Assembly (NCBI RefSeq): GCF_963678975.1
Contig: NC_089272.1
Location: 61,950,574-62,014,573 of the forward strand
Reading direction: 5' to 3'
Source: Dysidea avara
Lineage: Eukaryota > Porifera > Demospongiae > Dictyoceratida > Dysideidae
Length of the DNA: 64,000 bases
Below are positions 21,147-62,204 of this stretch, in pieces; within the stretch, counting starts at the first letter, position 1, and each line of letters starts with the position of its first letter. The notes below the pieces were generated by a model. That model did no database searches. It was not told the origin of the DNA and was given only the letters and a program-made list of their open reading frames with translations. The position numbers and the translations under genes are program-made.

Positions 21147-22710
<1,564 letters not shown>

Positions 22711-28180: not shown

Positions 28181-28238
28181 CTACATGAAAACAAACATCA
28201 ATATTCACTTCAGAAAATTGCACATCAATATAGCTTAC

Positions 28239-28815: not shown

Positions 28816-28872
28816 GTTGGAGTCACTATTAACTACAGCTTACTGGAAGAACAAGATCCTCCATTAGAAGAG

Positions 28873-30856: not shown

Positions 30857-31528
30857 CTGCAGAATAAAAATAGTTTATATCAAACTAAACAGTCTAATGG
30901 ATACTAAAGAATAAAATTAAGGGATTAAACATGTGCATGGAAAATAAAGCACGACAGGAATGTCAAGAGCCCATTACATCACAAGTAAAGCCACACTTTA
31001 TAACTTTTACTGGGGCTGTATAGTAGTTATTGCCAACTACCATACAGTCCAAGTAAGGTAGCATATATTTTTATGACAAACAGCAATAATGAACAGATAG
31101 GCACAGCATTTCACACTTATTACTGAAGCCACCATTAAAGTTTTCACCTGAGATAGAAATATCCAAATAGATAATTATATTGATATTGTACTTTCTAGTA
31201 TATTTCAAGCACCTAGGTAACTGATTCAAGTTTCACCCAGCCATCAGAGTATCAATGTCCATAAAATCCCTAGAATGTTGGAACAAACAGTTGGCTAGTT
31301 TCCATCGTTAGAACATCTCAAACGTGATCAACTGTGCTGTCTGGGGTTGGGGAGGGATTGTTTGTATACTTGTAGAAATAATGAGCATTCTTTTAACAAC
31401 TATTTTATTTTCCATTTAGAAGCCTTGCTACCTAATGGAAACACAGAACACTTTGACCACTACACACAAGTATTGAAAGTACAATATGAACAATTATAAT
31501 CATGTATATGTATGTATGTATAGTTTAC

Positions 31529-32842
31529 CTCAGGAATATTAAGCCAATTGGATTCTAGCCAAGATCGAACTTTGTAATGCTTCTTGTATAAACTTGATGA
31601 CTTCAAATTGTCTACTGCTTTGGCATATCCATCTGTTTGATCATCTTCATTGTTTGATGAGGGAGCCCAAGCGCATTTCCTTAGTAGGACAAGTAGCTCC
31701 TCTGCTTCCTCCTTGCTTAGACCATTGTGACTAGTGTTAACCCATCTTGTCCATGCCTGCACTCTGTGAAAGTCACATAGAAATACAGATGTTGCAGGAA
31801 AGGTTTGCTCTATGGCCTTAAACTCTGCTTCAGAGTAATCACATAGGAAAAATGGAGGTTTCCAATCTGGATTCCAACCTTTGAGAATTTCTAGTGCTTC
31901 ATGTATAGCTTCAGCTGTTTCATGTTGGGTCACAAACTCTGCTACCACACAGTAGTTCACATTTGTCCTAACACAAACAAAGAATAGGGGAAAATCGTAA
32001 CGCATTGTTTTGTAGGTTGCATCAATCAGGGTGACACAATTTCCATATGTACACATCATGTTTTGCTGCCACTTTTCCTGGTGTATCCACAGTAAACTTT
32101 GAGAAGCTGGTTTTACACCACCTTTCACAGCTTCCTTGTCATCTAAATATGGTCGAAAAAAGTGAAACGTATCTTTATTGTTGGCCTTCCACTGTTTGAT
32201 TTTTTCATTCAAGTTATCTTGATCAAATTTTGAAAGCTCTAATCCTTGTTTAGCCAAATAAATATATGGTTGCGAATATCATCTATGGTTGGAAAATATG
32301 AACGATTCAACTGATCGGGACAATTCTCCTTCATTTCTGACTTTATGTATTCTCTTAAAGCCCTTTTCACTTCTTGTGCATTCGTGGCACCCTCGTGAAC
32401 AAGTTGTATAATTTTCTGAGCAACCATTGGGTGAACTCGCTGTGCCATGAGATTTCATTTCAAAATTATGCTTGGTATGAGCAGCTTTCGATGGCAGGGA
32501 CACATGGTATAAAATTACTATTTTTATAGGCTGTTGGCTTGCTAGTGCACTTCTAAGACTTTCCAATTTGCTTAGCTTAAACTTTCGCAAAGCGTAATCT
32601 GACATTTTTTGTGCTTCATCTTGTGAATATCCATAGTCTGGAAAGACTTCGAATTCCCGAATAGTTATTGTAGCAGGACAGTCCTTTTTTCTTGTTGTTT
32701 GTATTACAGGACGATCTGTAGTCCGGTCCTTAGGCTTGAAATAGTGGGGCCCATATTGACAGTCCAATTTTTTAATCCTAGAAGGTCTAACAGGCTGGTT
32801 ATCAAATGTAACTCCATCTTTATTCCAATAAAATTTGCAGTC
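31529..32842 (-). pseudogene. Exon 2: CARF-like N-terminus and MULE transposase core
   Basis: After the acceptor (atgcag) the exon reads DCKFYWNKDG, KKLDCQYGPHYF and KKDCPATITIREFEVFPDYG, resembling the calcium-responsive transcription factor N-terminal region and MULE DNA-binding regions. The transposase core follows: LIDATYKTMRYD with the first Asp, FLCDYSEAEFKAI with the second, and VFLCDFHRVQAWTRW. The catalytic Glu is in exon 3. Frame must change near 32,450 (between HNFEMKS and MAQRVHPMVAQK) and near 32,262 (RNHI to YLAKQGLELS), so this copy cannot make the protein. Confidence 0.8.
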
Positions 32843-34339
32843 CTGCATGTACATAAATGGCATTTCAATAACCATGCTTTTACACATAATTTTAGTACAA
32901 AACACACATGATTATGAAATAATCAGACACAATAAACATTTGTGCAGAAAGCGCACAAGTAAACATTTGATTTGTTAATGATAAATTGAATTTACAAACT
33001 ATTGTAAGGAAAATGGTGTCTGGAGCATAAGCTCTGCCCATTTGTCACATACATACTTTATATTGTCGAGCATATCATTGCCATAAAAAGCCGTGTGATT
33101 ATACAGAGTGCATTACAAAAGCATAGCTTGTATGGCACATAAATTTAACTTAAGATGAAACCTATTGCCCTGTGGTGCTAAACAAAACAAAGCAACTGTA
33201 CAACTTGCATTTGTAGACACATATCTAAAAGACTGGCTATAAGATATAGTCAACTAAAAGCCTGTATGTAGACTATGTACTCTTACAGCTAATCTAGCCA
33301 TTGGACTTCAGGATTTCATATCTGCAATTACTGTAAGCTTCTCAATATGAAAACCATATTTGCTACCTAGCTAATTACGTAGACTTAATTATTGCATAGC
33401 TATACTTTAAAGTGCTACATATAATAATATTAGTGCTATTATTTGGTGAAGTATATACACTCTAGAATTGGTCTGATGCAAGTATTTCAGTGGATAGGAC
33501 ACTTTGGTTGCTAGATGCTTTAAGGTAAGAACTGATGAAAACTCCCAAGTATCTGACTACTGATTAAATATAGTTAGGTTGGTTTGTAAACACTAAATCA
33601 AGAATAAAAGTACATAACTGGGCCTACTAAAACTACTACAACTCGACTACATAATATTAACAACAAAAGCAAAAGGCTGGTTATAATCATGTTCTGTACA
33701 AAGATCAAAGCTCATTCCAACAACTCAAGTCATTGTTGAAGCTTCAAAGCCCAGCATCTCAAAGAACACTAGTCTCAACATGCCCATCCCAACTCCAAGA
33801 TTTAAACCTTGGAATTTTACTTCTGGTGCAATTCTTGGAATTGGGATAGGTGGTACCAGTATTCAGACTAATTGAACACCTACTTTAACTGAGCTCTCAA
33901 CAAATTACACAGAAACTATATAAAAATGTGATTAGATGTTGGCTGAAAACAAAAACACAAAGTTTCAAAGGGTGGTAGGATTAGCAAAAATTGTCTTCAA
34001 AATAGATGTGGACTACTATTAAAGAACAGGAGAAACAAAGTTATAGGACTGTGCTGGCTCCTTAGTGGCTGATATATGTAGCTATAGTAAAATCAAAACA
34101 TTTAGCCATCTATAATGGAAACTATAACAAGTCAGTCCAGTTTACTGATTCTAGTTAAGCCTGATCCTTATCACCATTTGGATTTGTCACACAACCCAGA
34201 AAGATAGTACCAGTCCCAATTAGTATGGGTAAACAAGGAAAGGTGATGAGCTGTGCTGTACACTCTTCTGTCCACTATTCATTAATTCTTGCTAATGTGC
34301 CGGGGCTACTCTAGTGATGTAATTGATAAACTAACTTAC
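32843..34339. other. Probable intron 1 of the transposase-derived gene
   Basis: The stretch is bounded by the GTAAGT donor at 34334-34339 and the acceptor at 32843-32845. No exon or element was recognised inside. Confidence 0.45.
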
Positions 34340-35569: not shown

Positions 35570-37560
35570 AGCTAAGTCGTAACAACCGCAAACCATGGAT
35601 TAACAGAAAGTTGATGCAACTAAGGAGGCAGAAACAAAGGAGCTACAATAGAGCTAGATCAACAAACCAACGCTCTGCCGTGACTGGGCCCATTTTAAGG
35701 AATTGAAGAGAAGAATGCAGAGAGAATGTCACCGGCAATTCGTACAATAAGTACATGTCAACTATCATCAATGAATCCCACGAAAGAGGGAAAAAGAAGA
35801 AATTGTTTAGCTATGTAAAGTCACTTATACTGATTACTGTGGAGTGTCAGCATTGCAGAAGGATGGTGTACAGTACAATGAGAACCAGGATAAAGCCAAT
35901 ATATTAAATGAATATTTTCCCACCATTTTTACTAGCAATGAACATCCGAACCCCAGCTTAGGACCCAGCCTTTATTCAACCATGCCTGATCTTGAAATCA
36001 GCGAAGCTGGAGTTTCCCATTTACTCAGTGATTTGGATCCATCTAAGTCCAATGGTCCAGATAAACTTCCTACAAGACTATTAAACTTACTATCAAACGA
36101 AATCTCTCCTAGCTTAACTTTACTTTTTACTGTCTCCTTGCACCAAGGAACTGTGCTGCAAGACTGGAAGAAAGCACTGGTAACCCCATTGTTTAAAAAA
36201 GGTGAAAGATCAAACCCAGCAAATTATCGTCCTATATCCCTTACTTAATTATGTTTGTAGCAAGATACTAAAATATATCATTCATACAAATATTATGAAA
36301 TACCTATTAAACCATCATATATTGTCAGATGTTCAATTTGGGTTTCGTGAGAATCACTCAGCAGAACTGCAATTGATTAATGCTACTCATGATTACTTGA
36401 ACAATAGAAGCCAAACTGGTGTTATTTTGCTAGACTGTAGCAAAGCTTTTGACAAGGTGCCCCATCATCTCCTTCTATTGAAACTAGAACATTATGGAAT
36501 ACAAGGAAGAGTACTAAGTTGGATCACTGATTTCCTGTCTGACCACTCTCAACGTGTTGTTTGTGGAAGTTACTCCTCTGAGCCTGTTAGTGTTGTTAGC
36601 GGTGTTTCGCAAGGTAGTGTGATAGGGCCCTTACTCTTTTTAATATACATTAATGATAATAACACAACACTTGTCATCTTCATGTCGCCTCTTTGCAGAC
36701 GATTGTGTCCTTTACAGACGGATAGATTCACCTGATGACATAAATTTGCTACAACAAGACTTAATACAACTTGAAATGTGGGAAGAAAAATGGCAAATGA
36801 AATTTAACATTAGTAAATGTACAGCGTTAACCATTACTCTAAAACAGCACCCATTGATATTTGAGTACTTTTTACATGGACACAAACTTGCTGCAGTCAC
36901 TGAAAGCTAAATATTTGGGAGTTGTACTCGATTCTAAGCTTTCTTTTAAACACCACATTGATGCCACTTGTCAAAAGACAAACCGCACACTCTCCTTTAT
37001 TCGTTGAAATCTGAAATCCTGCCATAAACAAGTGAGACTAGATGCTTACAACATATTTATCAAACCAATCTTTAATTATGCTGCCACAGTTTGGACATCA
37101 CACTCACAATGTCATATTAACAAACATGAAGCTATTCAAAACCGAGCGGCACGCTTTATTGTCTCAGATTACAGAAGAACAAGTAGTGTATCAGCTATTA
37201 AACATTCCTTAAATATGAAATCAGTACAATGTCAACATGAAGAATTACGATTACTATATCTTACATGGACTTGCTGAACTAGAAATGCCAAATTATATTA
37301 CACCTGCAATCACTACTACACGTGGAAATAGTATCAAATTTGTCCAGCCATCAGCACAAGTTGATCCTTATAAATTCAGTTTCTTCCCCCAATCAATTAA
37401 CTTGTGGAACAAGTTACAAATTGACAATATACTATTACCTTCAATGACTTGTTCAAATACCCTAATAGAACATACATCTTACACAAAATACTCTAATAGA
37501 ACAGTCATTTCTACTGTTAGGATAACCGAGTGTTCAGATGATAGAGGTTCAGATAATTGA
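35570..37560 (+). pseudogene. Decayed LINE (CR1/Jockey-type) ORF2
   Basis: The plus strand reads KPWINRKLMQLRRQKQRSYN and KKKKLFSYVKSL (the linker after the endonuclease). Then SNGPDKLPTRLLNLL, KGERSNPANYRPISLT, ILLDCSKAFDKVPHHLLLLK, GVSQGSVIGPLLFLIYIND, the catalytic FADDCVLY, and KYLGVVLDSKLSF follow. The C-terminal part has QNRAARFI and INLWNKLQID. Frame changes occur near 36,235, 36,660, 36,905 and 37,255, with several stops, so the copy is dead. No endonuclease is recognisable upstream, so it is 5'-truncated. The 3' end carries two copies of the dispersed motif (taatagaaca near 37,458 and 37,490). Confidence 0.88.
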
Positions 37561-41709: not shown

Positions 41710-42263
41710 TGCTTATATTATGACGACTTGACCATTTCCGTTTTCCATTTCCACTGTTTCCAATTGCCCTTTATCCACTGAAGAATTCTAGCACACAGGT
41801 GTCTCACCAGAATGCCCAAATACTCCTTCTGCATGACATTGTCTAATCATATGTATATTTGTGCAATGTGAAAGTTTGTAATCATAAGCTGCAAAGTTAT
41901 ATACATATGGGCGCACAAGTATCATGTAAGGAGCGCACTTAGTTATGTACATAATGGCTTTAGTGCTAAACCTTATGTGAAGATTTTGTTACATGATAAT
42001 GATAACACAAGTTCTTTAGAATAAAATGATTTGCACTCAGATGTTCACATTCAGTTGGCAATGAAGGTTTATTAAAACCATACATATCACTTGTTTATCA
42101 TTAATGATGAATTCAATTATGCATGTTAATTGTATGTATAGGGTTTTTCCATACATTCTTTATGGATTCTGGTTCATTGAAATATGCAATGTTGGCATAA
42201 CTCAAATTCTTATGTCATCACTACTGCACCACAAAAACAGTATACCTACAGTAACAGCTTTAT

Positions 42264-43478
42264 TTGATAGTAGGCATGATGATTTCAACGGTTAAGTTTG
42301 CATGTACAATAGCCATCAGTATTGTAGTGTGTGTTACAATGGTGGGGACTACAGCAGTACGGAAGAACTGTTCTCTGGTAGGCAGTGATGATATTATTGG
42401 GAACAATAGCACTGAGCTGGTGTCCTTGAATGTATCTCAGTATTGCTTTGTAAATGAATGTGCTGTTCAGATCCATGGGTCAAAAGTGTTGTTGAGCATA
42501 TCTGAAGTATATGAGGACCATGTACTAGTAGCAGGTGATAGTTCTATGTTGTACTTGGTATCTTCAAATGGCACTGATTGCTTGCTTGAAGAAAATGATG
42601 AAAATCGTCAAGTTAATTCATTTCTTATTATAGCTGTATTGTACCTGTTCATTGTTGTGCTGAGTGCCATCAATATTGTTCTTCATCTGTTAATTAAAGA
42701 GTTACGGAATGTTATGGGAATATTAATTGTTTGGTTTTGTATTGCAACAGCTGTGACCAGCCTGCTGGTGACATTAAGAGCAATATACACTTATCTCCAT
42801 CAAGTTAATGAGAACACTGGCATCTGTGCTGCCTTCAACTATCTTATTCCCATCTTCGTTTACATACGTGAACTAGCACGTGTCATGATTTTGTTTCACT
42901 TTGCTTACCTGATGTACAGAAGTCACAAAGTTAAGGGAGAATTGTTTGCAGCAAATGAAAAGTGGTTGCTTTACAAGTATCAAATTACTATTATCGTGCT
43001 TACAGTTTTTGGCTGTATAACTTTAATTCCGTATGATGCAGCAGCTAGCAAAAATGGATTTGACACTGACGATGGTTACTGTACAGGTGTTCCTGTTATT
43101 AAAGGATACTATGCCATTGTACTAACTAGTCAGCTGGTCTTACTATTAGTTACTCAAAATGTCATTTTTGCTGTTGGGATTGTGCTTTACTTCAAGGTGA
43201 CGAGAAGCTGCTGTGGGAAAATAACTAAAGACTTTCGTGTTTCCATTGCACTAATAGCCACAACAGGAATTGCAGTTGCCATTTACAACATCTTATTTGT
43301 GGCTGGAGTTTCTTCATACGTAATTCTTGCTGCCGTGAATACCAGTACCATCATTGAGCAAGTTGTGTTCTTGGTGATGTTTTCAACTACAAAGAAAGTA
43401 ACAGATTATTGCAAGAGAATTAAAGAGAAATACCGGACTGGTACCATCAAGAGTACTACTAACACGTACTCATTTTAA
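42264..43478 (+). CDS. Orphan seven-transmembrane receptor (404 aa), adhesion/Methuselah-like
   Basis: The gene is intronless. Residues 1-30 form a signal peptide (three Met candidates at 1, 5 and 6). An extracellular part of about 85 residues follows, with Cys 36, 62, 66 and 105 and N-glycosylation sites near 35, 48, 56 and 102. Seven hydrophobic segments then lie at about 119-143, 150-172, 187-217, 230-247, 271-300, 315-338 and 344-365. Cys 188 before TM3 and Cys 263 in the loop before TM5 fit the conserved GPCR disulfide. The cytoplasmic tail is short and basic. The family B2/Methuselah-like look is an impression, not proven; no GPS cleavage motif is visible. A broken copy lies 3.7 kb upstream, so the gene was duplicated locally. 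Confidence 0.8.
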   Translation: MIVGMMISTVKFACTIAISIVVCVTMVGTTAVRKNCSLVGSDDIIGNNSTELVSLNVSQYCFVNECAVQIHGSKVLLSISEVYEDHVLVAGDSSMLYLVSSNGTDCLLEENDENRQVNSFLIIAVLYLFIVVLSAINIVLHLLIKELRNVMGILIVWFCIATAVTSLLVTLRAIYTYLHQVNENTGICAAFNYLIPIFVYIRELARVMILFHFAYLMYRSHKVKGELFAANEKWLLYKYQITIIVLTVFGCITLIPYDAAASKNGFDTDDGYCTGVPVIKGYYAIVLTSQLVLLLVTQNVIFAVGIVLYFKVTRSCCGKITKDFRVSIALIATTGIAVAIYNILFVAGVSSYVILAAVNTSTIIEQVVFLVMFSTTKKVTDYCKRIKEKYRTGTIKSTTNTYSF

Positions 43479-45895: not shown

Positions 45896-45962
45896 CTAGT
45901 ATTGTTTTCTGCTATTGCAGTACCAGCAAGGAGGCACACAAACATTATCCTTAATCATCTTC
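45896..45962 (-). CDS. Exon 7: vestigial finger and stop
   Basis: After a good acceptor (cttttttcag) the exon continues in phase as KMIKDNVCVPPCWYCNSRKQ, one Tyr and TAG. The CVPPCWYC start is the same finger as in exons 4-6, so this appears to be a decayed fourth cassette now serving as the last exon. Confidence 0.55.
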
Positions 45963-48900
45963 CTGAAAAAGAAAAAAATAATGTTGACTATTAATATTAA
46001 TGCAAAGCAAATAGTTCATTTCATTGTGCACACTACAATTACATGTACAGATTTAATTGGCTCCAAAAAAATACTAAATATCCTGAGATGTCAAATTACA
46101 GGCCGCAGCTTGCACAATAAATTGTTACTTAGTAGTGCCTTATTGCTGCAGGCTAAGTTTATGTAATGACACACTCACACTCCTACACACAAGTCTTGAT
46201 TTTTGGCCACATAATGGAGTACAGTATAATACTGTATTACATTATTTTTAGCAAACTAGGCTTGCACCACTTTCTCCAGCACTTACCCTAATACATACAG
46301 TTGTCAAGAAATACTAAAATACACTCTAAAAACAGTCAGTGCTTGTTGATTTTGAAAACATAAATTTGAGCTATAGTGTATAGGCTTGATTTTTGAGCAT
46401 TGATCAAAAGCAAAATACTTTTAAGGAAACAAAATTATCAATGCAAATAATATTAGAAAAGTCAAAAGAAGTGCTTAGTTTTTGAATTTGTACTATATAT
46501 ACCGTATTCATGATGGTCAAGGCACAGCCTTAATTACCCATTGGCATGTATGATCAGCTAAAGACATCCTTTTACTTATAGGGATACAAAGCCACCTTCT
46601 TTTACAATGCATAGAAGATGGCCATTTTTCATCACCAATATAATAATACTTGCATTCATGCACATAAATGAAATGAACTATTCCTTACAGCGTATCTAGT
46701 TGAAGTGTGGAAACATCACATTTAGCTAGAGTGGATCTAATGATCTCTCCAACAGGTTCCAAGGTCAGAATCTGCTGTAAGTAATTTAAGCATTTCATTT
46801 GATCTGCTTTGTTCTGGTATTGCAGTGGTTCTTTAGGCTCAAACGTGGTGTGTGAAACATAAAACCCAAAAGTCAACTGCCGTAGTGAATTAAACTGGTG
46901 ATAGAGTACATATGGCATACTACATGAGTCAGTGTTCACACAGACAAACAAGATATACTGACCAAATCTGCCACCTTTCCTCTTGTATTCACGACTCACA
47001 TGAAATACTACACAATGTCCCTGGGGAAGTGTGACACCACAGTCTACTCCATTGGGATTGTTTGTGACTTTATACCCACAAGGTAATATGTGAATAATGC
47101 CTGGATTCTGATAGATGATTTTTAGACAATCCTCACTGCAGTGTAGAATGCTTTCACCATTAATACTGGTTGTAATGCTCGCCGGTTGAAGGCAAACGCA
47201 GCAACGACTTTCACAAAACCAACAGTGTGGGAAACACTTAATATCCACTGCTTTTGATCTAAGGTAAAAAAAATAAGCACATTTAATAAATTCAACATAA
47301 TGTCAATTGGAGGATGATTCTACACATCATCTATGTAGTTTACTAGCTATTTCATGGACTGAATTCGCAGACTGGACTCACGGACTGAATTGGAAACAGC
47401 TTGTTAACAATAATCCAAGCATTATTTATAATTATCTCTTGTAACGCTGGGCACACCATTATTGAGCTACAACTGTTGGTACTGCCCTTCCTCATAAGTC
47501 ACAAAGGTTGTGTGTGCACTAAAGTATTAAAATATTCACAAAACACGCGTACAAGTAGTGATATAGGCTATTATTGTAGCATAGGTTCATTCCTTTGTTG
47601 CTCCAGTACACTTAGCACTAGTGTTTATAAGCTTCAGTTATGAGCCAGTAAGTTAACCTCGAAATCTGGGGGCAAGACTACATAGCCACATAGCTAGCTA
47701 ATGCCACCCACCAACTCAATATCAAATCGGTAAGTTTATACCAATCTGTATCCGTGTATTTACCATAAATCACGGCTAAACGGTGTAGGAATAGCTATGC
47801 CACTCTACAAAGCTATGGCTCAACTACTGGCATGCTTTTTTCTATTAATTTAGGACATGCGTGACCTTCATGACTTAAGAGGAAGAACAGTACCAGCAGT
47901 TTTAGCTCAATAATGATGTTCCCAGCATTAGAAGAGATAGATAATGCTTGGATTAGTGTTAAGAAGCTGTTTCCAGCTCAGTCTGTGAGTCTAGTCTGCA
48001 AAATATATTAGGCTGTTTACTACATATTACAACTATATTCTGAGGTGTGGCATTGCATCTTACCACTAAAATATTACTTGGTTGATCGCAGTTCATAAAG
48101 GAGAAAAATTATTACAGTGACAGTAACTGCATACCGTTATTAAGGAAGAGATTACTGTAAACTACACAAGAAATGTAGCAGATAACATTTAAAACTTAGC
48201 AGGGGACATGAATTATTGTGTTTTAGTATGACATGTTAGAGTTTCTAAAACAGTCTGCATCAGTTTTATGTCCTCATACACATGTCACATAGCTACTAGT
48301 AAGAAAACCTCTGAATTATTGAATATGGGTAGGTCATAGAGAAGCAAATCTTTATGTTAAAATCTTTGTTATAGGGTTCACATTGCCAGTTGATGATATA
48401 TTAGCTTTCAAGTCCCTCTAGGCAGTGGTTAAAGAAATTTTAATCTCACAGTAAAATTGTAATGCACTTGCCTTACAATGATGCAGAACATAAATCTATG
48501 CATGGTTCTGTTATCAGCCCTTATTTAGCAGCCAATTGCAGTACCAATCAACATGCAAATAGTACATGAACAGTACGTAGTAATAATAATGTGTTTTAAC
48601 ATATGCACAGTTGTCCAAACTTAGTGACTGCACATGTCCAAATTGAAAGGATATTACAACCTAGTTATCTCTTTACTTAAAGCAATGATGTTGTGTACTG
48701 ACTAATTCAATATTCTGAATTACACAGCATATACAGTACCCTTAATTGCATTTATGACTTTGTCTTCTAAAAAGCACACTACCTTGACCACAAATAACTT
48801 ACCTAGCACGATGAAGTAAAGATGTAATGTCTGTGTAACCCCTTCTCTCCAAAGCTGACTTTATTCCATCAGGAATATTATAAATCTGAGATTTTATCTG

Positions 48901-51900
48901 ACCCATATATAACTCAGCAGCAACATCACCATTGCATAGTAAGCCTTCTACTGAAAAGTCTTCAGTGGATATATAAAAGGCAATATTAGCTATAAAATTC
49001 TTCTGTGGCATATAGTCATGAAGCAAAGCGTACACCTTCTCATTATCATCAAGACACAAAACTATTGTTAGTTCAGATGATACTTCACCTTCTCGAGTAT
49101 TTATTGAGCCACTTGTATGCAACAAATGACGGTGACCTTCAGGTAAGGTCACCTTGTTAATCCCTGATCCTTGCGGGAGGCTCCTGTTAACGGTGAAACC
49201 CTCTGGCAAACTGTTAAGCACAAATGGAGATGATTTTTGCTTCTCTTCACAAAGACTGCTGCAGAATTTGCCTTGATCAGTGACAGTGAAACAGTTGATG
49301 CATCTCTTCTGGCAATACCAGCAAGGAATCTGACACCGTTTATCAAGCAATTCCCTATATAAAAGTGAACAGAACTATATAGCTACATATTTTGCTAGCA
49401 ACAAAACAGAATGACAGTATGCATGTACTGTTTGTGCCTCCATTATTTAGCATCACTGCCATGTTTATATTTAGCTGCATTATATTGGATATCTTATTGT
49501 TTCTGTTCTGTTTTGTACAAATGATATGATTATTTAAATCTCAAGTAATACTAGAAAAAAAGCTTGCCAAGTAAAGCATAGTGGTGAATTTACATGTAAT
49601 TATCATACAGTGTGGTAGTACTGTATATTAGGGATCATGAAGGTTTGGGCTTTTCTGGTCAAAATACCACCCTAAAACCAGCCTCACAATACATTCATGG
49701 CACCTTGGCAGTATTGGTTAGGTATAACCAAGCCCAAAAGTGCCTTCAGTGTGACCTGAAACACATCCAAAAGGTTACCACGAAACTAAAATATATATAT
49801 ATATATATTAGTGGAAGTTTCTACTGACTGACTGACTGACTAGTGCCCTTCAGACAAGCAGAACTCGATAACGGCTAAGACTACAGGCTTGATTCTTTCA
49901 CTGTTCAATGTCACTTCATCCAGAGACGTGCCTTTGACATACCCTAGTACACACAACATGGACTTACCTAAGTTACCTTTGTCCTTCTTTATGTCCTATT
50001 TCTGTTTGCTGACAGCTCAAGGTGTCGATTCGTGGTAGCTAGCGTAATGGCCCGTGATGGATTCCCTAAGGGAGTTGTTTGTATTTTCCATGGCAACTGC
50101 TGAGGTGGTTCTTAGTTTGTAATGCTGTAAATGGGCTGAACATAGCCAAAAGTGAAGTGTTGCGAATCAGTAATTGATACGTAGTTAGGGTGCACAGATT
50201 GTCTCTATTTTTCATGGTGACTGGATTGATTGCAGAGGTGCTTCTCCTAATATTGTTCTTCATTTGTAGTGCTGTGTAACGGGCTGAACATAGCTGAAAA
50301 AGAATGGCAGTCTGGTCTCTATCTGGATGAGATCGACCTGTGCTGTTTCTGAAGAGTGACCAAATCTGCCCTTAGATGATACATCCCCTTAAACATCTTA
50401 TTGTAGTGAAAAGAACAAGTAGCATCATACCCATCCCATTGCAGCTGTGTAATTTGAGTCTCACTTATCAGATAGCTGGGTGCTTGTAAAAAACTGTTGC
50501 TTCATTAGCCATTCTCTCTGTGGCTGGGAAAATTAAAGGAGTAAAGGAACTGTATTGAACTTCATACATGTGAACTTCATACAGTCACTTCTTACTTGCA
50601 TTTTCTGTAAATGGCCCTAGTATTGGTGGACTTTGATGGTACAATTACTTGGCATGTGTGGGTTAAAAACTTTTACATCAATGTAGGCCTTCTCACAATG
50701 ACCTCACCAAAATCCATTAGCTGAAATGACTAGGTGAGTGCCATTTTCAGTGTTTGAAGAAGCTAGAATGAACTGCTCACCTGTGACTGGTTGTAAATGG
50801 GGTCAACTGCAACCTCATGACAGACCTCAGTCAGTAAACTACATGAATCTCATTGTGATGGAAAGCCACCCTTGGGACATGTAAAAGAATGTTCAAAAGT
50901 GAACTTAGTTCCACAGGCACAATGCTGGCTGGATCCCATCCATATCTGAGAATAACAGCATCATGGAGAGCAGTTTTGTGAAGGGAGAAATTGTGCTCCT
51001 GCAATGGAAGGACAGTCAGAGGCCAACTCAATTGATGTCTTCAAATTAATAGTAGCTTCTCATGTAAAGTGGCTCTGTTGGAAGAAATCATGGAAAGTTT
51101 CAAGTGGTGAATTTCAGTTTTTATAGAGAATTGCTTATCTTGAATATCACTTGAAAAGGTACCAGACTGAGAAAACAGAGGGGATTGCAAAGGCTTGGTA
51201 ACTTTATCAAAGGCAGAAAACTTGAAGTCACACATTCCGATGGGGTTGATAATACCCGTACCACCAATTAAGGTGGGAAGAGCCAACAAATCTCTTTCTA
51301 AGTCACCAGGTGGTGAATGGCCAGGTAGACAACTACAGAGCAATTCAGCTCTAGCTATTATCTGTCATGCAGTCATCCATTTGGACAATGCATGAAAATA
51401 TAAGGAAGTAAAACATGTCAGATATTGTTCGTGTCATAAACGTACGTACCAGCCTTATATGGAACATCAGAAAATCACTCCCGGCTATTGTTCGTACATA
51501 CCAGCCTTATATGGAGTGTCAGTAAATCATGTCAGTTATTGTTCGTGTTATGAATGCACGTACCAACTTTATATGGAAGCATTTGTAAGTTATCCGTGTT
51601 TTCTTGTAATTGTCTGTAAACGAGATATACATACCATTGACTCGCTAGTGTGGGGTTCGCTCAGGCTCATCCCAATTAAGTAAAGTATTTAAGACTATAT
51701 TAGTAACCTATTATATGTAGCGGTCTTGTGTCATTCCATGGTCTGCACAATGGGTGACATGTGGTGGGTACGCATTCCAAACAATTACTTTAATGATAAT
51801 TCATCAGTTTTGTAATCAACTAATCAAAACTTAGAAACTGCACCGAGCCAGCTAGACCTAACAGTATAAAGTTCTGTGTCACTTAATAAAATGAATCAAA

Positions 51901-54900
51901 GCATTTGAACTGTCAAACTACGACAAACTGCTTTCCCATGGATATTGCCCAGGAAAATGTGAACACTCAAGCTAAAGTGGTACATATACATAAAAAAGTC
52001 AGTATAAGGAGAGTTTCAAATTATTGTCTTGGACTATATTGTTTAAAGTTTATTCCAGAAATTTTGATGCTATATTATAATATGATAATCACATGTTTTG
52101 TAGCAGCATGAATTACTATGTACTGTAGCAACATGGGTAACTATACCATTCATCAGACTGAACAATCCTTTCCATCTGTTGCTTTGACAATTTCTGCATC
52201 AACAATGCTGGGACTATCCCACTGGAGTAAAAACTGTCAACAAAGACAGTGTGAGAACCATCGTGGTTTGAGCCAGGAAGAAGCTCCATCAGTTGAAGGT
52301 CTTGTAAAGATATGAATATTCCAACTGAAAATTGCTCAATCAAGCTGTGCAGATGGCAAATTACATAAGGTCTGAAATCATAGTCACCAACAGACTTGCA
52401 TAAAAACACTGTTAAATCTCCTGAACGATCTTGGTCACCCTCATCTATAAATTCTGTTGTGCCATGAGAAATTACTACATGATTTTCAGGCAAATTCACA
52501 TAACAAGAGCCTTGGAATTCATTTCTGATCTCAAATCCTTCAGGGAGAGCATTCTTGATAGGAGGTGGTTTAACCAGCTTGGCCTTACAGGTCTCACTAC
52601 AATATGTGTATTTCTTACGGTATCGTTCCAATTCATAAAAAGACTGTGTAAAGCAGACATCACATTTGTTACAGCAAAACCAACAGAGAGGGACACATTT
52701 ACTGATCAGCTGGACATTTCTGAAAAAAATCACCCATAAATAAAAAGAACTCAAAAAATATAGTATTATACAGTAAATATGTCAGATCTAATCACACATA
52801 TGATAGCTTGAGATTACACAGTTACATAATATTATGCATGTGGCATTCTAGAACTAGTAAAACAGCTAAGAAAATTTCTCATAATTATTCAGCCTTATAT
52901 ATCTAATTAGGCCTGCACCGATTATGCCAGCATAATTTGGGGCATAATAGGAAGCCAAAAACATCAGCATAATGACAGCATATTAGGCAAACTTTTTGTG
53001 CATTGGTTATGTGAGAAGCTGAAACTCTGCCTATTTTACATGATGCAGAATGGGATAGTGTGCAAACATGGTAAAAATCAGATTTACATCTACGTTGTGA
53101 AGAGAAGATTAGTTGAAGATCGATATACTCTAATAGAACAGTCACCGCATAATGAAATATCCTAATAGAACGTTCACAGATGCATTGGGTACTCTAATAG
53201 AGCAGTCAAGACACAATTTTATATGAGCATATTTGGAGCATAATGGTGCACAACTGGGCATAATTGGAGCATAATAGGAGATATTTTGGAGTAATGCTCA
53301 AAAGTATAATAGGCAATTTCAAAAGCATAATAGGCTCAGGCCTATATCTAATGAGGTACAGTAACTAGCTGTCTACCTAGAGTTATGAGGTTATGAGTTC
53401 TACCAAGAGGGGTACATTTCTTGTTTATGAAGACAGTACATGTATTCTGCTACACATGTGCTGAGTATGATTGTAAAGTGAGCCTTCATATAGCCAATTA
53501 ACAGAATTCATTCAACTGACTCTTTCACGTTCAACAATATGAATGCAATTACACTCTGTGTGTGCACCATATGAATGCAATTAATCATTTCAAACAGAAG
53601 ACCATAAATGATTGGATATTCTCCCTACTACTAGAATTCTTTAATGTCTGCAATCCACTTTATTTTATTTTGTGCAAAATATTTTTATGATAATTTTTTG
53701 TGTGTAACTTCACACCTTACACCGAACAAAAATTATTTCACATGAGAGTACCTCAATCTTCTGCAGTACTGGTAGCTACTACTACAGTGGTATTTTTAGC
53801 CACATCTAGCCAATAACTATAGTACTAGCTAAATGCAGTAAGCTACATAGTTAATACTTGGAAACTTTCTATAGCTGTGCAAAACAAAAAATTGTGTAAG
53901 AAAATTTCGTAAATTTGGTAAACATAACCTTACACAACAAAAATACAGAATAGATGTATTTCTATTTTTCACATAAGTCAAAACCACATGCACGCACACA
54001 CGTGCACACACAGAGATACATACATGCACACACACGCACACACACTACACACAACACACTCTATACCTCAATTGTGATGCAATAAGATCATGTACTGTTG
54101 CGCCAACCTCCTTTAATAAACCTGAGAAAAGTTTCTGGAATATACCAGATGATTTTAGATTAGCTAAGAGATGGTTTGCATAAACTTTGGGATGTTTATC
54201 TGGAAGGAGTTCATCTGGACTGAGATTATTGGAAGATATAAAATATCCTACATTCATGTGAAGGCCTGGCATGAATCTGTGTTGAACAACGTAGGGCCTA
54301 TCTTTCACATAACCTCCTTCACCATTTCCAATACAGAGAAAGTGGGTAACTCCTTCTTGGTCAAATTCTTTAGAGTTGAGGGTTTGGTGGAGCAACAGTT
54401 TGTGCCCAACAGGTAAAACCAGTTGATTTGGTTTGTTCCTATTGATCAGTATATCAGGTGGCAGAAAATTGAACACCTTGGGGAATGCAGGATCAGATGA
54501 CGGTTGGAAGCCATTTCTTTTAATGAATTCTTTGTCATTCCTCACAGCATCCTCCATACCAAACACCTTTTCTAAAACTCCTGGTTGGGAGTCATTAAGA
54601 CTGGTAGCCTGTAGCCGTTCCTGTGTAACTTGAATGTCAGTTACCTCCAGTGTTTCAGCGGCCAAGGTGAGTGAGTTCCAGACAAATAAAGGTAGTTTCT
54701 GTAACCTTTCACTTTCGGCAGGTACAATGAATACTCCTGACTGTGGATCAATAATCCTTTCTTTTGGCAGAGTGGACTTTCCACCTGGAAAAACTGTGAC
54801 TATGTTTATGATTCCTAAGTGGATAAGCAAGTGGTTAGCAATTCTGGGAATACGACAGTGATTTAACTTCTCGTCATCTTCAATCAAAGAAATAAAGCCA

Positions 54901-57900
54901 GGCATATTAAGCAACCTGTGCATTGTGGATGAAATGCTTAAACCAGTTTCTGGTAAAGAAAGTGGATTGACAAATATGGCAATTTCAGGATGATCCACAG
55001 CTGTGTCGTCAGGATATAGCAAACTTTTACGAAGGTTAGTAAAAACTTTGTATAAAACATTATCATTTAAAAATCCCACCATACCTTTTGCGTTAATAGC
55101 CAATGCTCTAAAAACCAAACCAGTTGAAAACTGGTATAACCACTGCGAGTATTTTATCTGAGCTTCCCTAGATGGATTATCAACATCGCTTTTCTCATAT
55201 ATTAAATGAAAGAATTCTTTGGCAAAATGACTTTCGTCTTTACTTAGAAGGTTCTCACATTTACTACACAACATCCACCAAGCAGCTTGTCGAGGTGTGT
55301 ATTCTTTATAGTCACTAGACCCGTCTAAAGAGCAATAAACTTTCTTAGATGACGATGACTTAACTCCTTTTGCAAAGCCTGATAGAACAAAGTTTGGGAT
55401 AACATGACTACTTTTTAGTTGGCTCTTAGAATGGCAAAGTAGACAACGTTTACAGGCACTCAGATTGTTGGTAACTCGTATATATTCAACCATTGCAAGA
55501 TCGAAATACTTTCTCCCTTCATCATCGATCATATTCTCATCCATCAAAATTCCTAAAGTTATGATAGCTTTTTTCACATCAACCAAGGTATCTTTCTTTT
55601 TATGCAAAGGCATATCGGCCTCTTTGTAGGCACTTGAATACTTTCTTGCATTTCTGAACTTGCAATAGAGTGATTTGCCAATGTACAGCTGAATGGTGGA
55701 AATGTTTTCACTTTTGCAACTAGTTTTGTCCATTTCAATTTCCTTCAAAACTGACTCACAAAGGGAAACACATTCGTTGTATCTTCCTCCATGATAGGCA
55801 ACTTGTAGATAGCCAATTGTACTGGAAATATCTGCAAAGTAAATAAAGCAATTCATTAATGTGGTCACGTACCTATTATATTATTATGTATGCAATTCAA
55901 TTGCAGCCATGTAAGTACAAAATAGCCAAGCTGTGAAAAAGGGTGCGGTCTTTCAAAAATAGGCTAGTATGAAAAAGTTGTGATGTCAAAAGTGATGGCC
56001 AAGAAATGACTGCAATGATTAATTCTGTAACACTGTATCATTTCTTAGTCACCACGTCTTTTTGATACTAGCCTATTTTTGGAAGGCTGCACCCTTTTCT
56101 CACAGCTTAGCTGTTTTTGAATTAGATATCATTTCTTTTCGCATTTGTATATACTAACTTTTGTCTTTTTTATTTCTCTACATGTAAGCAGAAGAAGTAG
56201 ATTTTAGACTTCAGACCTCAGGGGTCTATGTAATTTAGTAACCCAATGACCCTGTGTTGTGGCACCTGAACAAAGCGAAGGCGCTACTACAGGGCCTGAG
56301 GGTTACTAAATATGTAGATCCCTGCGGTCTGAAGTCTAACTTATTTAGATAATTTATGTAGCTGTTGTACCTTAACACTCTTGACAGCACAGAGAAATGT
56401 AGCATTAATTAGTAGAAACAAGCCATCACTCCACTTGTTACAGGTTTATAACTAAGTTACAGGTGGCGTTGCATTGCCAGCGCTACCAGTGCAGGTGTGT
56501 GTAATAAAAGTATAAGTAACTTAGACACCTCTAAAATCTACCACAAAGGGTCTAAATGACATTTGTACAATTATGAAATTAATTTTGGTATCAGTTGTAT
56601 GTTGCATCTAAATGACTGCTATATTAAGTGATGTCGAAATGCACTTATTACAGTACATGCATGTATGGTTTACAGCCCAATTTAAACAGGATACACTTTG
56701 ATTTGTAGTTTACTGACATGTGCAACAAGTTTGCATAAGCAGTTGGCATTACAACAAATCACAGTATCGCCACAATAATAATGACTCTCACATACATATG
56801 TTTACTATTTTAACTATTTGATTTGACAATTTACGTAGTAAATACTCTAATAGAACACACATTCTTTTTTCTGAACACTTCTAAAATACAATGTACATAG
56901 AATGTTCTAGAATTTCTATTGATAGATCTACAAAATTTTACCATTCTGGTGTAGTAAACTAGAAATTAAGTGAGATGAACATTTGACAGCAGTGACAGAG
57001 TGGTAAAGGGTTTAGGCATATAGGTCTGGAGGTCCTTGGTTTGAACCGAGGACAATCTTTTGCTGCTTTTAATTTAATATTTCTCAGTGGCTGGTCTATT
57101 AAAGTATCTCAATTCAAATGTTTGGTTTTTGCTTTATACATATCTCCTTAGCTACGGTAATGTTATAAAGAATTTAAATACAAGTACAACTTCCTAATGT
57201 GTGCAATTTACTAACAATAAAGGGAAATTTACTGACTGTTACTCAACAGTTAAAAAGTCTACATCTCTTTCCTTTGGTATGCCCCCTCACATATACATAC
57301 ACAAGAAAACAATTGAATATCCCTAGAAGATATCATCACTCAGCAAGTAAACTATGTAGGACAGTTTATTAGACTGTTATTTTGTAGCTACTGATATAGT
57401 TTGTTTATATCCATTGTATATATTTTATTGATGCCAAAACAGCTGGTTGACAATTACTGTCCTTTTTTAATTTGTTGGTAAATGGCACATACTGTATGTT
57501 ACAGCTAGTATAAATGTGACCTAATTCTCTCGAACATGTTTAGTGCTTTTGATTATTTATTTCAAAACCACAAGTTGTTTATAAGAGTTGCACAGATACA
57601 TACGTAAGATACATTTATTTAAGTGTGACATGAAAATTAAAAACTACTGTTACCTTTTAGCGGGTTCCAGCCTTCAATTCTAAGTAGTGCACACCTTGCA
57701 GCTGGGAAATTGTCTGATCTTAATCTTAGCTCTTCAAGCACTTCACGATTATTACACAGCAATTCTTTAGTGCTATCATGTGTGGCTAATGTCCAAAGTA
57801 TTTCCAAAGTTTCCAGCTTGTCATCTTCACTGTCTGCTTTAAGTAACTTGGTGAAGGAAGATAGAACTTCATTTTCAATGAAAATCTTGGCAATTGTTTC

Positions 57901-60900
57901 ATTTAAAGCCAATCCCCTGGCACCTTTTAGCAATTCCAATAAGCTCACTGCTATGTAGTTAAGCATAATAGGCTGAGGGGATTTACTAAAAGCAGCAGCA
58001 ACAGCAGTAACAATTTTGGCCAAGAGAGGTGCAATTGCCTCCTTGGAAACACACACAACATCCTTATCAGCATCTGAATTCATCAAACCAAGAATAATTA
58101 GAGCTGGGATGCTAACTTGAACAAGAGAGGATTGTGAGTAAGACAACAAAATATCTTGTGCCTTGTACTTCCAGTATACATCTAGGATCCCTCTCGCTGA
58201 TTCACAGAGTGCACAGTTTTCTAAAGTGCACAAGGCGGTCACAGTTAAATATTCTTCTGTCTACATGAATAAAGCAAATATTATTATAATACACTCACCG
58301 AATGACTACCATTTAAAGTTGTTGAGACTATACACTACAAATCTGCTAAATTGGTAATATTTGCTTCACTAAAATGACGATGACTGCAAGGGATGTGGTT
58401 AACCCATTTTGTTTAAGATTGTACCTGTCCAATTACACCAGCGTAACTTTGAGTATGACAGATAGGTTAACTTAAACAATAAGGCAGCATAATACTGTAG
58501 GAATGATTTTCCGCTAACTAGAATTAGCTCATTTTCCTGTATGAAACACCCTCAGGGTAGGGTCATCTTCGATATCAAATTTGAGTTAAATCGGTCCCAC
58601 CATCTTTGAGATATGTGCCTTCATAGTTTGTCTTATTTTCTTCATCTTCCATCCATTTAAAAAAATTCCCTTAGCTAAGGAAATATAAAACCCAAAAACC
58701 TGCCTCGAATTTTCCTCACAATGACATGACAGTATTGGTTGGGTAAAATCAAGCCCAAAAGTGCCTTCAGATCAACCAGAAACATATTTGTCAAGTTGCT
58801 ACAGAATTTTAAATTTTTATTTGATGGAATTTTCTACTGCCTGCCTGATGCGTTCAGTCAAGCATAGCAGAAAACTGGGTACAGCTACAGCCCTATACTT
58901 CTTTCACAAATGCATTTCAAATTCACTCAAGAAAAACCTTTGGCATATTGATAAACATATAATGCATGCGCTATTGTCTTACCTTTTATCCTTCTGTACC
59001 AGTAAAGGTTCTTCATCAATAGTAGGGCTTCCATCCACAGGCATAGCTACACATTATGCAATATAGCATAATGTGTACACCAGTGGACACATGTTGTAGA
59101 TGATGCAGTGATTGGTGAGCTGTCCAATATCATCAGAGACAATAAGCGTTTGTTTTTAGCAAAGTTAATTGGCTTAACTACTTGCATTTCTGAACATATG
59201 CTGTGACCAACACTGTTCACTACAGGCACAGATCCAGACTAGACTTCTAAAAACAGTCCTCAAATCTATAAATGATTCCAATAAAGGGGAAGTTCCACTC
59301 TTAATGGTAGACTCCCCTGCAATGTTTCACTGTTAAATCTTACCACTTAGGCCTTTAGAAATGCAACTGAAACCTCTAATAGTTGCTGTAATAGCTTTAG
59401 AAGATAAAGACAACAATAGTTTAGAGGTGCCTATCATATAAAATTAGCAGTTTCAAGTGATATTTGAAGTATTACTGCTATAAACAAAGATAAAAGTGTT
59501 TCACTGTTTTGTCATTGTAATAATTGTTTAATTGAAGAAAAACTTTTCAACAGTTCAGTAAAAGGGGGTTCCATGGAATCTTTTGAGCTCCCCCAGATCC
59601 ATCCCTGCACTAGATGCTTCCCTTGTTTGCTTCATCATTATCCAGACTGATAGCATGCTTTCATTCATTACTTTCTTTGTGTTTCTTCACATGATATGTC
59701 AAGCAAACCATATTATAGCTATAGCTACATAAGTGCTACTAATACCATACAAACAAAGTTATTGAGTGAACTAGTTTTAAGCTAGATAACTTGATGAACT
59801 TCTAAGTGAATTTAATACAGTTTAGCAATACTTTTTGGTGTGCTCTATAGTTTTAGCTAATTGGCAAAAAAATTGCTAACTACTTGCATATACTAGTATA
59901 AGTATAGTGATGTCATTAACTATAATTGTGTAATATTGTGACTGGTTTTGTGAAAAGCGATTTTTCCGTGAACACATCCAATTCGGTTCATAGCTAGCTT
60001 CAGACAGATTGAAGGAAACTAATGACTTCAAATCTAATCAATATATAGTTAGCACCAACATTACTAAATGGATGAAAAGTTTTAGGGCTACACAGCTCCT
60101 ATATGGATTAGTGTTAAAAGATCTATTTTCGGAAATCCATTTAGATTATTATGCAGTGTTTAGTGGTCAAGAACTTGCAGAAAAAGTTCACAAACAAGTA
60201 CAAGAAAAGATTAGGAATTTTAAACTAGAGTAGGGACAATGTAGTACCATGATAAAAAGTACTGAAACAAGCTGGATTGAGCAGTATGTAATGTCCAGTT
60301 GCTGTAAAATGTAAAACAATAAGAAGCGAATATTTCTACTGTGCGTGGAAATTTGTTTCTTGTTGTTTTACAGCATTTGGACATTACATACTACTCCAAT
60401 CCAGCTTGTTTCAATACTATTTATCATCATACTAAATTGTACCTACTCTAGTTTAAAATTCCTAATTTTTTCTTATACTAATTGTTAAAAAAAAAACTGG
60501 AATTTTCCACTAGAGTAGGGACCATAGCACATCGATAAAAAGTACTGAAACAAGATGATATTAAATTAATGAGAAGCATTATATCCCTACTGTGCATTTC
60601 CATTATGATATCTTGAGCACAGTAGGGATATAACAATTCTTATTGTTTTACTGTGATTTAATATCGTGCACTACTCCAGCTTGTTTTGGTACTTTTATCG
60701 ATGTGTTACAGGGTTTTTGCTAAGTATTTCGACTCTAAGCCAAACTGGCCCAACCCAGACATATACTGCTCCACCAGTAGTATACCACTGGGCCAATCAG
60801 CTCATGTTTGATGTACAAAGCTGAACTAGTGCTGAGAAAATTGGAGCAGAAGCCATGAGTTTTGTGGGTCATTTTGTGGTCACAATGGGCCAATGGAGCG

Positions 60901-62204
60901 CCATATTGCCTTATCAAATACCCTGATGTGCTATGGTCCATACTCTACAAGTATACCGCATCAAAAGAAAGAAATGGCGCTGCACACCCCAGCTATCAAA
61001 TATCTTCTGAAAAGTGAAGCATCCATTGTGCTTTGTTGTCAGCTATGTTCAACCTGTTACACAGCATTACGAATCAAGAACTGTTCAAAAGCATTTCTGC
61101 AATCAAAGTAGCTACTATGAAAAATATCGACGATTTCCATTACAAAGGGAAGCCATCACGTACTACAGCCAAATCGATACTTTTCACTGTCAGCTAAGAT
61201 GAATGGGACACAAAGGAGGACACTGGTAAATCCATGAAGAATGCATTGTATGTACTGCAGTATGCCAAAAGGCAGCTCTCGGGTGGAAGCGACAACGAAC
61301 AGTGAAAAGATCAAGCCTTTATTGAGTTACGCTTGTCTGAAGGCATCAGGCAGTTACTAGTAGAAAATTCTGTTTTAGAAATTTTTAAAAAAATCATAGC
61401 AACTTATTGAAATTGTTTCAGGTTGATTGTTTTAGCTTAGTTTTACCCAACCGAAACTGCTTCTTTGTCGTCAGGGAAAAGCGAGGCTGGTTTTTTGGGT
61501 TTTTTTTCATGGGCCACACCCACACCTTTGTGGTCCCTACTATACAGTACTGTATGATATTGATTTGAGCCATATTTCTCTGAGTAACAAAGTGACTAAT
61601 ACTTTAAATGTATAACGTTATCTTAATGCAAGAACTACACAATTACAGTACTCTATTCCAGGGTTTTGCTTTGCTCATCACATATACACTTTTCCACAAT
61701 AACTTACTACTCTGCTAAAATTAAACACCACATTGAACAGCAAAGGTTATTTGAGAATTTATACCATACAGCCAATATCGAACGATACACAATACAACTT
61801 ACACTGTGAACAAACTGTAATTTTCCAGATTTAGCAAGCTGATTCATCAACTTTGTAATGTATCCAGCTAAGAGCAGATCACTGCAAAACAACTCAAACA
61901 TTGAAGACAGTGAAATACATGCAGAGCAGAGGGTTGCAATGCATGGCCAATTCTGTGCAGTATACTCTTTCTGTAATGTCTTCATTACACTTGTAAACAC
62001 TGCTGCAGTACTAATTGATGACAAGTGCTGGCCAAACTGTTGTTTCTCTGTGTCGTCATTTAACTGACTAGCCAAGGCAACAATGCTTTTTATAGCATCC
62101 TTCACTTGTGATAAAATATCTTTCTTAAATCCATTTAAATCCGCTGATGCTTGTTTTAAAAATTCAGTAGCAAGGGTTGCCTTTTGCAGTACACTTTCAT
62201 CCAT
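45896..62204 (-). CDS. Large multi-domain gene: ARM-like, TPR-like, HNH-like, four LPxGH repeats (about 1511 aa)
   Basis: Seven exons join in phase with GT-AG borders: 61803-62204, 57654-58260, 54067-55831, 52147-52719, 48803-49354, 46689-47258 and 45896-45962. They total 4536 bp. Domain order by residue: armadillo-like helices (1-336), TPR-like helices (about 337-460), an HNH-like Cys/His domain (about 463-580), a mixed region, then LPxGH repeats at about 800-925, 925-1116, 1116-1300 and 1300-1490. The last three each carry an N-terminal CxxC finger. No transmembrane segment or signal peptide is seen, so an intracellular protein is likely. I do not know this architecture. A nuclease joined to protein-interaction repeats suggests a regulated effector, but that is speculation. 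Exons could be missing, since the model rests on phase and splice consensus only. Confidence 0.7.
46689..47258 (-). CDS. Exon 6: CxxC finger plus LPxGH repeat
   Basis: A symmetric 570-bp exon. The finger reads CFPHCWFCESRCCVCL ... HCSEDC. Then come LPCGYKVTN, VTLPQGHCVVFHVSR, ILFVCVN, PYVLYHQFN and FYVSHTTFEPKEPL. The end is ambiguous: reading on gives a TAA stop (46685-46687), but a gtaagg donor at the same spot gives phase 2, like exons 4 and 5, and leads into exon 7. Confidence 0.7.
47336..48023. mobile_element. Inverted-repeat element of the GGACTGGACTCACAGACTGAG family
   Basis: The left end (gtagtttactagctattt ... ggactgaattcgcagactgg) and the right end (...ctgtgagtctagtctgcaaa...tttactac) are inverted over about 95 bp. 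It sits in the intron between exons 5 and 6. The same terminal repeat makes the arms of the palindrome at 28873-29401. Confidence 0.75.
48803..49354 (-). CDS. Exon 5: CxxC finger plus LPxGH repeat
   Basis: A symmetric phase 2-2 exon of 552 bp. The finger reads CQIPCWYCQKRCINCF ... FCSSLCE, followed by LPEGFTVNR, VTLPEGHRHLLHTSG, LTIVLCLDD, YALLHDYMP and FYISTEDFSVEGLL. It ends in helices before a gtaagt donor. Confidence 0.75.
49610..50300. repeat. Dispersed repeat with CAAGCCCAAAAGTGCCTTCAG core (copy 1)
   Basis: The blocks cctcacaata, cagtattggttaggta, ccaagcccaaaagtgccttc and ctactgactgac recur in the same order at 58,670-58,960 and, inverted, at about 61,340-61,500. An (AT)n run and a gactgac microsatellite (49,824-49,841) are inside. 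It lies in the intron between exons 4 and 5. Confidence 0.6.
50831..51360 (-). pseudogene. Retroelement protein fragment
   Basis: The minus strand reads PGDLERDLLALPTLIGGTGI then INPIG. After a frame change it reads MSWPLTVLPLQEHNFSLHKT, ALHDAVILRYGWDP and AFHHNEIHVV. I know this order (LPxxxGGxGIxNP ... LPLxEHxFxLHKxxFxDAxxLRYGW ... RHNE) from the C-terminal part of repetitive retroelement proteins in corals and sponges. The exact class is uncertain. The copy is broken. Confidence 0.6.
51405..51590. repeat. Three tandem units of 50-65 bp
   Basis: Each unit holds a tattgttcgt block, a cgtaccagcc-like block and a ttatatgga block. The middle unit is shorter. It is a small minisatellite in an intron of the large gene. 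Confidence 0.7.
52147..52719 (-). CDS. Exon 4: CxxC finger plus LPxGH repeat
   Basis: A symmetric phase 2-2 exon of 573 bp. The finger reads CVPLCWFCCNKCDVCF ... YCSETC, a MYND-like spacing. Then come LPEGFEIRN, VNLPENHVVISHG, LTVFLCKS, PYVICHLHS and IFISLQDLQLMELLPG. It aligns end to end with exons 5 and 6. Confidence 0.75.
52908..53344. mobile_element. MITE with TAGGCCTGCACCGATTATGC end and 8-bp target duplication
   Basis: The element is flanked by TATCTAAT on both sides (52900-52907 and 53345-53352). The ends are taggcctg and caggccta. The interior gcataat units and the ccgattatgc stretch relate it to the element at 26165-26608. Three copies of the dispersed motif lie at about 53,129, 53,161 and 53,190. 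Confidence 0.85.
53353..54066. other. Intron DNA with CA microsatellite
   Basis: The tract at 53,985-54,056 (gcacacac/cacacgcac repeats) lies directly against the exon 3 donor. Nothing else recognised. Confidence 0.5.
54067..55831 (-). CDS. Exon 3: TPR-like helices, HNH-like domain and first LPxGH repeat
   Basis: The exon starts DISSTIGYLQVAYHGGRYNE, a TPR-like helix pair pattern. The Cys/His domain follows: CKRCLLCHSKSQLKSSHVIP, then about 40 residues on LCSKCENLLSKDESHFAKEF, and then WLYQFSTGLVFRAL. This C..C / SHxIP / LC..CE / E..FA / WL..F...R.L order matches an HNH-like family I know from bacterial hypothetical proteins. The His is in place; whether it is catalytic is unknown. The exon ends with LPVGHKLLLHQTLNS, HFLCIGN, PYVVQHRF and GYFISSNNLSPDELLP, the first LPxGH unit. 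It has no CxxC finger of its own. Confidence 0.75.
55920..56116. mobile_element. Small MITE in intron 2
   Basis: The left arm aatagccaagctgtgaaaaa through gtctttcaaaaataggctag pairs with the right arm ctagcctatttttggaagg through ttctcacagcttagctgtt. Non-coding. Confidence 0.8.
56205..56338. mobile_element. Small MITE in intron 2, second family
   Basis: The left end tagacttcagacctcagggg and the right end ctgcggtctgaagtcta are inverted, and the pairing continues through taatttagtaaccc / gggttactaaata. It is about 134 bp and lies next to the MITE at 55920. Confidence 0.8.
56988..57069 (+). repeat. tRNA-like sequence, probably a tRNA-derived SINE head
   Basis: An A-box-like tgacagagtggtaaagg and a B-box-like ggtttgaacc are about 40 bp apart, with a T-arm-like stem (ggtccttggtttgaaccgagg) and a following TTTT. 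The acceptor stem is imperfect (agcag ... ctgct), so a working tRNA is unlikely. A copy of the dispersed motif (ctattaaagtatctcaat) follows at 57,096. Confidence 0.45.
57075..57653. other. Intron 2 remainder, nothing recognised
   Basis: AT-rich, with no inverted repeats or exons noticed. Confidence 0.35.
57654..58260 (-). CDS. Exon 2: armadillo-like repeats
   Basis: The exon enters in phase 0 (TEEYLTVTALCTLENCALCE) and leaves in phase 1 after GWNPLK. The helical repeats include VSIPALIILGLMNSD, LNYIAVSLLELLKGARG and KLETLEILWTLATHDSTKEL, with the Leu/Ala spacing and Asn/Gly turns of armadillo folds. It continues the pattern of exon 1. Confidence 0.75.
58640..59230. repeat. Dispersed repeat with CAAGCCCAAAAGTGCCTTCAG core (copy 2)
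   Basis: Same block order as copy 1 (cctcacaatgacat, cagtattggttgggta, caagcccaaaagtgccttca, ttctactgcctgcctga). It lies in intron 1 of the large gene. Confidence 0.6.
60200..60475. repeat. Fold-back element, first of an adjacent pair
   Basis: The left arm attaggaattttaaactagag ... agtactgaaacaagctggat ... acattac/gtaatgtcca pairs with the inverse on the right (..ccagcttgtttcaatact ... ctctagtttaaaattcctaa). The open frame 60009-60233 ends within the left arm, so it is not independent coding evidence. Confidence 0.8.
60505..60716. repeat. Fold-back element, second of an adjacent pair
   Basis: agtagggaccatagcacatc, gataaaaagtactgaaacaa and tatccctactgtgca pair with agcacagtagggatata and cttgttttggtacttttatcgatgtg. 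It shares the aaaaagtactgaaacaag block with its neighbour, so the two are related. Confidence 0.75.
60717..61540. repeat. Dispersed repeat, inverted copy 3 and flanking repeat DNA
   Basis: Blocks from about 61,340 (aggcatcaggcagttactag, tagaaaattctgt, caggttgat, tttacccaacc, tgggttttttttcat) are the inverse of those at 58,670-58,960. No exon recognised. Confidence 0.5.
61803..62204 (-). CDS. Exon 1: N-terminal helical repeats
   Basis: The exon opens MDESVLQKATLATEFLKQAS and encodes alpha-helices with the hydrophobic pattern of armadillo/HEAT repeats (IKSIVALASQL, CIATLCSACISLSSMFEL). It ends at a strong gtaagt donor in phase 0. The start could instead lie upstream, since cttag precedes the ATG like an acceptor. 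Confidence 0.65.

Follow-up and report, generated by a model that had tools for sequence, protein, structure and literature searches.

What kind of protein is encoded by a gene that combines helical segments, a Cys/His module and a series of repeated domains is the question raised by a locus in the sponge Dysidea avara. The window analysed, meaning the whole stretch of DNA, comprises 64,000 nucleotides. A preliminary description had proposed that seven exons join in phase into 1511 residues, and this gene structure was borne out on the minus strand, running from position 62204 down to 45896. Exon 1 (61803..62204) provides the start codon, with a stop in frame immediately upstream of the ATG, and the N-terminal part, which appears helical by eye (aa 1-134); it ends in a GT donor. 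Exon 2 (57654..58260) covers the armadillo-like repeats (aa 135-336). Exon 3 (54067..55831) is one open frame of 1765 bp, with 587 whole codons free of stops, and contains a helical, possibly TPR-like segment, the HNH-like module and LPxGH unit 1. A zinc-finger-like part followed by an LPxGH unit is encoded in each of exon 4 (52147..52719; unit 2, aa 926-1113), exon 5 (48803..49354; unit 3, aa 1117-1300) and exon 6 (46689..47258; unit 4, aa 1301-1489). Exon 7 (45896..45962) adds 21 residues that open a fifth unit (CVPPCWYCNSR), followed by a TAG stop. The exon lengths are 402, 607, 1765, 573, 552, 570 and 67, which give intron phases of 0, 1, 2, 2, 2 and 2. When the splice sites were read from the sequence, all six predicted introns were of the GT-AG type and the frame was kept throughout the gene. 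The chance of open frames as long as those of exons 1 to 6 was 9e-5, 7e-7, 1e-18, 1.5e-6, 2.5e-6 and 1.7e-6, respectively, as an independent-base estimate at the base composition of the window. Frame and predicted splice sites thus support one protein-coding gene.

Two or more genes, or the remnant of a mobile element, might have been wrongly joined in this model. About five of the six introns measure about 1.4 to 3.5 kb, and the same window carries a MULE-type transposase related to ZSWIM1/3 (31463-32278, minus strand; Pfam MULE, E 1.4e-10) and a reverse transcriptase fragment (36184-36732, plus strand; RVT_1, E 1.4e-18). However, the helical segment, the Cys/His module and LPxGH unit 1 all lie in exon 3 and are therefore linked without splicing. 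Furthermore, the LPxGH units run on through exons 4-6 with matching phase, and six open frames coincide with six canonical introns. We consider a wrong joining very improbable. Several other features were seen in the window. Minus-strand frames at 27368-32911 neighbour the transposase. An alpha-tubulin frame was found at 21150-22154 (minus strand), of which 326 residues align with PDB alpha-1A tubulin with ten differences, counted by eye; this similarity makes an animal or a near relative the likely source of the DNA. A 715-residue open frame at 8075-10219 (minus strand) has a signal-peptide-like stretch near its start, and a 407-residue frame at 42255-43475 (plus strand) has several hydrophobic stretches and looks receptor-like, both judged by eye; neither had a Pfam match up to E 0.01. 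The intron that separates exons 5 and 6 contains nested inverted repeats (47364-48002) with arms of 66 and 100 nt that are 88% and 79% complementary, and these are perhaps a small mobile element.

The C-terminal part had been described as four copies of an LPxGH domain. This was confirmed by pairwise tblastn of the protein against the window, in which units of different exons paired with each other at E values down to 4.5e-15. A profile of the units placed the copies at aa 787-922, 926-1113, 1117-1300 and 1301-1489, with a fragment at 1495-1508. These profile scores are high by construction, because the profile was built from the same units, and the independent evidence for the repeat nature is the pairwise tblastn. 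The frame of exon 7 was matched by the unit profile at E 0.005. Outside the gene, the best profile match in a six-frame translation of the window had an E value of 0.67, compared to 0.84 in a reversed control. The LPxGH landmark itself is a loose motif (LPVGH, LPENH, LPEGH and LPQGH). Unit 1 (54075..54482, minus strand; aa 787-922) lacks the zinc-finger-like front part. Exons 4, 5 and 6 each hold one complete unit, front part and LPxGH domain, between phase-2 introns and consequently look like duplicated exons; they are symmetric, since their lengths are divisible by three and phase 2 is found on both sides. At the level of sequence, one domain recurs four times in tandem in the C-terminal part, and three of the copies lie on symmetric phase-2 exons.

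The fronts of units 2-4 show a CxxC and CSxxC pattern that resembles zf-FCS (MYM-type) zinc fingers. This family gave the best Pfam match with the unit 2 front (E 0.2), with 11.9 bits against a cut-off of 22.4, and no zf-FCS match was obtained when the fronts of units 3 and 4 were compared to Pfam. In contrast to zf-FCS fingers, the unit fronts score below the cut-off, with a match in only one of the three tested. Neither Pfam nor PDB sequences gave a significant match to the LPxGH domain, and unit 2 had none in plasmids or viral contigs. An AlphaFold2 model of the unit in exon 4 reached a mean pLDDT of 68.5.

The assignment of the N-terminal half also required correction. Armadillo repeats had been proposed, and exon 2 alone indeed gave a related signal with ARM_PUB in Pfam (E 5.8e-4; 19.8 bits against a cut-off of 33) and with KAP (E 0.028; 13.1 bits against a cut-off of 25.6). 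No ARM profile scored above its cut-off, so this signal is weaker than had been stated. When the whole protein was compared to Pfam, ARM_PUB was the sole match, again below cut-off (E 1.9e-3). The proposed TPR repeats received no backing from profiles: no TPR profile in Pfam matched the segment ahead of the Cys/His module. At low confidence, AlphaFold2 modelled the initial 120 residues of exon 3 as helices (pLDDT block means 40-66). Searches of PDB sequences with parts of the protein yielded no convincing match, the best having an E value of 0.058.

The Cys/His module proved to be the part with traceable relatives. Its core (55017..55454, minus strand; aa 463-608) contains the previously described order of CxxC, SHxIP and LCxxCE at aa 466-529, followed by a further conserved Glu at aa 536. 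A search of PHROGs v4 with hmmscan matched phrog_26326 to residues 2-124 of the 284-residue module (E 1.5e-13); two weaker families were also listed, and all three are of unknown function. By tblastn, the module matched five plasmid records of bacterial and archaeal origin (E 4e-4 to 9e-3), and phages gave no match to it. Viral contigs gave no match when scanned with the single animal protein, but three loci matched when they were scanned with an alignment. A genome scan gave 43 candidate stretches, two of which were relatives. In total, 16 loci (L001-L016) were considered, among them a Cytobacillus plasmid (L001), a Halanaeroarchaeum plasmid (L003) and a viral contig (L005). The L005 relative used as query matched 12 plasmid records and one phage record; the relative from L009 matched one plasmid record and one viral contig, and no phage records.

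A profile of 15 prokaryotic members matched aa 463-608 of the animal protein with an E value of 1.3e-20 (for 10,000 sequences), and among 332 window sequences the raw frame of exon 3 was the sole other match. Residues C, C, S, H, P, Q, L, C, E, E and R were invariant in 12 aligned prokaryotic members. All of these but Q, whose placement is uncertain, recur in the animal module. Exceptions among the relatives were Gly before the His in L014, Ser for Pro in L016 and the lack of the last Cys in L015. The CxxC-SHxIP-LCxxCE-E core and a following Y..WL..F....R.L stretch are common to phrog_26326 and the prokaryotic relatives. Similarity further C-terminal is weak and is seen with the L005 relative, which matches residues 1-250 of the 284-residue query. 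Judged by these comparisons, aa 463-608 are homologous to an unnamed prokaryotic family, with weaker similarity on to about aa 710. The context of the module differs: of the 16 prokaryotic frames, 11 encode proteins 259-307 residues long, whereas the animal copy lies inside 1511 aa. Haloarchaeal members have an extra C-terminal domain that is unrelated to LPxGH by profile comparison. In the haloarchaeal L002 and L003 this domain opens with CPVC and has no Pfam match.

This homology does not by itself imply a gain from prokaryotes. The module could be an old, vertically inherited eukaryotic domain unnamed in Pfam, and the gene would then be an unremarkable member of a eukaryotic family so far undescribed. 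In the tree, the animal copy sits on a very long branch without a clear sister, grouping with L014 from Burkholderia at 70% ultrafast bootstrap, and its identity to the prokaryotic relatives is only 18-28% over the alignments; both observations would fit such a history. The relatives that were found come from prokaryotes, viruses or plasmids, but the collections searched were prokaryotic, viral and plasmid, with eukaryotic proteins covered via Pfam and PDB only, so this distribution is no real counter-evidence. We regard this history as rather unlikely. Within the libraries searched (Pfam and PDB for eukaryotes), neither the Cys/His module nor the LPxGH domain corresponded to a named family or to a well-known animal family. 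A literature search by word in titles and the beginnings of abstracts returned no description of this domain order.

The module had been called HNH-like. HNH endonucleases show the motif order CxxC, xHxIP and CxxC, with a His/Asn after the second CxxC. The animal copy likewise has two CxxC pairs framing the His of xHxIP, as in HNH_5 and HNH endonucleases, and this His is invariant in the 12 aligned prokaryotic members. In contrast to HNH endonucleases, the position behind the second CxxC is Glu rather than His/Asn, both in the animal copy and in all 12 aligned prokaryotic members, and Ser stands before the His of the animal module. Three of seven prokaryotic members gave sub-threshold HNH_5 alignments in Pfam. 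No HNH model in Pfam exceeded the threshold for the animal module or the prokaryotic members tested, and the animal module had no Pfam match even at E 5. The AlphaFold2 model of exon 3 had a mean pLDDT of 41.5 and was too poor to show a fold. Because the last His/Asn is a Glu despite the motif order and the HNH_5 signals, we refer to the module as HNH-like and not as an HNH nuclease.

The same substitutions raise the possibility that the module is catalytically dead and, stabilised by zinc, acts as a binding domain, in which case the protein would be an ordinary scaffold or regulator with no defence role. SH and Glu, where DH/HH and His/Asn would be canonical, agree with this, and so do further Cys-rich units of this protein. 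However, the same residues are kept in 12 prokaryotic members and in the animal copy, which fits an active site. The question of a defence role was addressed with PADLOC, in which the animal module matched no family up to E 5, which again agrees with a dead binding domain. The HNH-like proteins themselves gave nothing up to E 0.1 in five of six prokaryotic members; that of L003 had one weak LmuB match (E 0.024). On the other side of the argument, some relatives adjoin defence genes. Weighing these points, we consider a dead module possible, if doubtful.

For the neighbourhoods, 11 proteins from six of the 16 loci (L002, L003, L005, L009, L010 and L016) were compared to PADLOC, and the remaining loci were judged from annotation or raw frames. 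Four of the 11 neighbour proteins matched, in three of the six loci; this fraction should be read as a hint, not as a rate, because the loci were chosen partly on promising annotation. In L009, a Dsr1-like SIR2 protein (E 3.6e-83) ends at most about 0.4 kb upstream of the relative on the same strand. In this Aerophobetes MAG (2052-6780), the Dsr1-like SIR2 gene is directly followed by the HNH-like family gene, and the pair may be a two-gene defence unit. In L010, from Exiguobacterium, a type II methyltransferase (MTase_II, E 1.9e-117) ends 37 bases upstream of the relative, and the restriction enzyme of the same type II R-M pair was also matched (REase_II, E 3.6e-272). In L002, an LmuB-like (Lamassu-like) ATPase (E 5.4e-37) lies about 2.7 kb from the relative on the other strand. 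The tested neighbours in L003, L005 and L016 had no PADLOC match. According to annotation, a VapC toxin gene is located about 0.7 kb downstream of the relative in L015. The relative in L012 sits among insertion sequences, and L004, L013 and L014 have no annotated neighbours.

Taken together, we favour, with a probability of roughly 40%, a protein that combines recognition with an effector, the effector part being common to prokaryotic genes that in some cases lie in defence neighbourhoods. In such a protein, the prokaryotic-type module would be a metal-binding HNH-like fold acting on nucleic acid, in which the His of SHxIP may act as the catalytic base while both conserved Glu bind the metal. 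The LPxGH/zinc units would be binding modules multiplied by exon duplication, and the N-terminal repeats may form an assembly scaffold. The sensor/effector role in defence put forward in the preliminary description is a tentative reading, and only some of the prokaryotic relatives adjoin defence genes. A more far-reaching version, which we think unlikely, is an animal innate-immunity or genome-surveillance protein: it would have taken over from prokaryotes an HNH-like nuclease, so far undescribed, that occurs near anti-phage systems, and joined this to LPxGH as a new recognition domain of zinc-plus-beta type that multiplies as its phase-2 exons are duplicated.

The LPxGH unit may represent a new domain family. 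Should the module prove to be an active nuclease, the sponge gene would add to the cases in which animals reuse a conflict-type effector of prokaryotes, and the unnamed family of bacteria, archaea and viral contigs would be a candidate defence nuclease.
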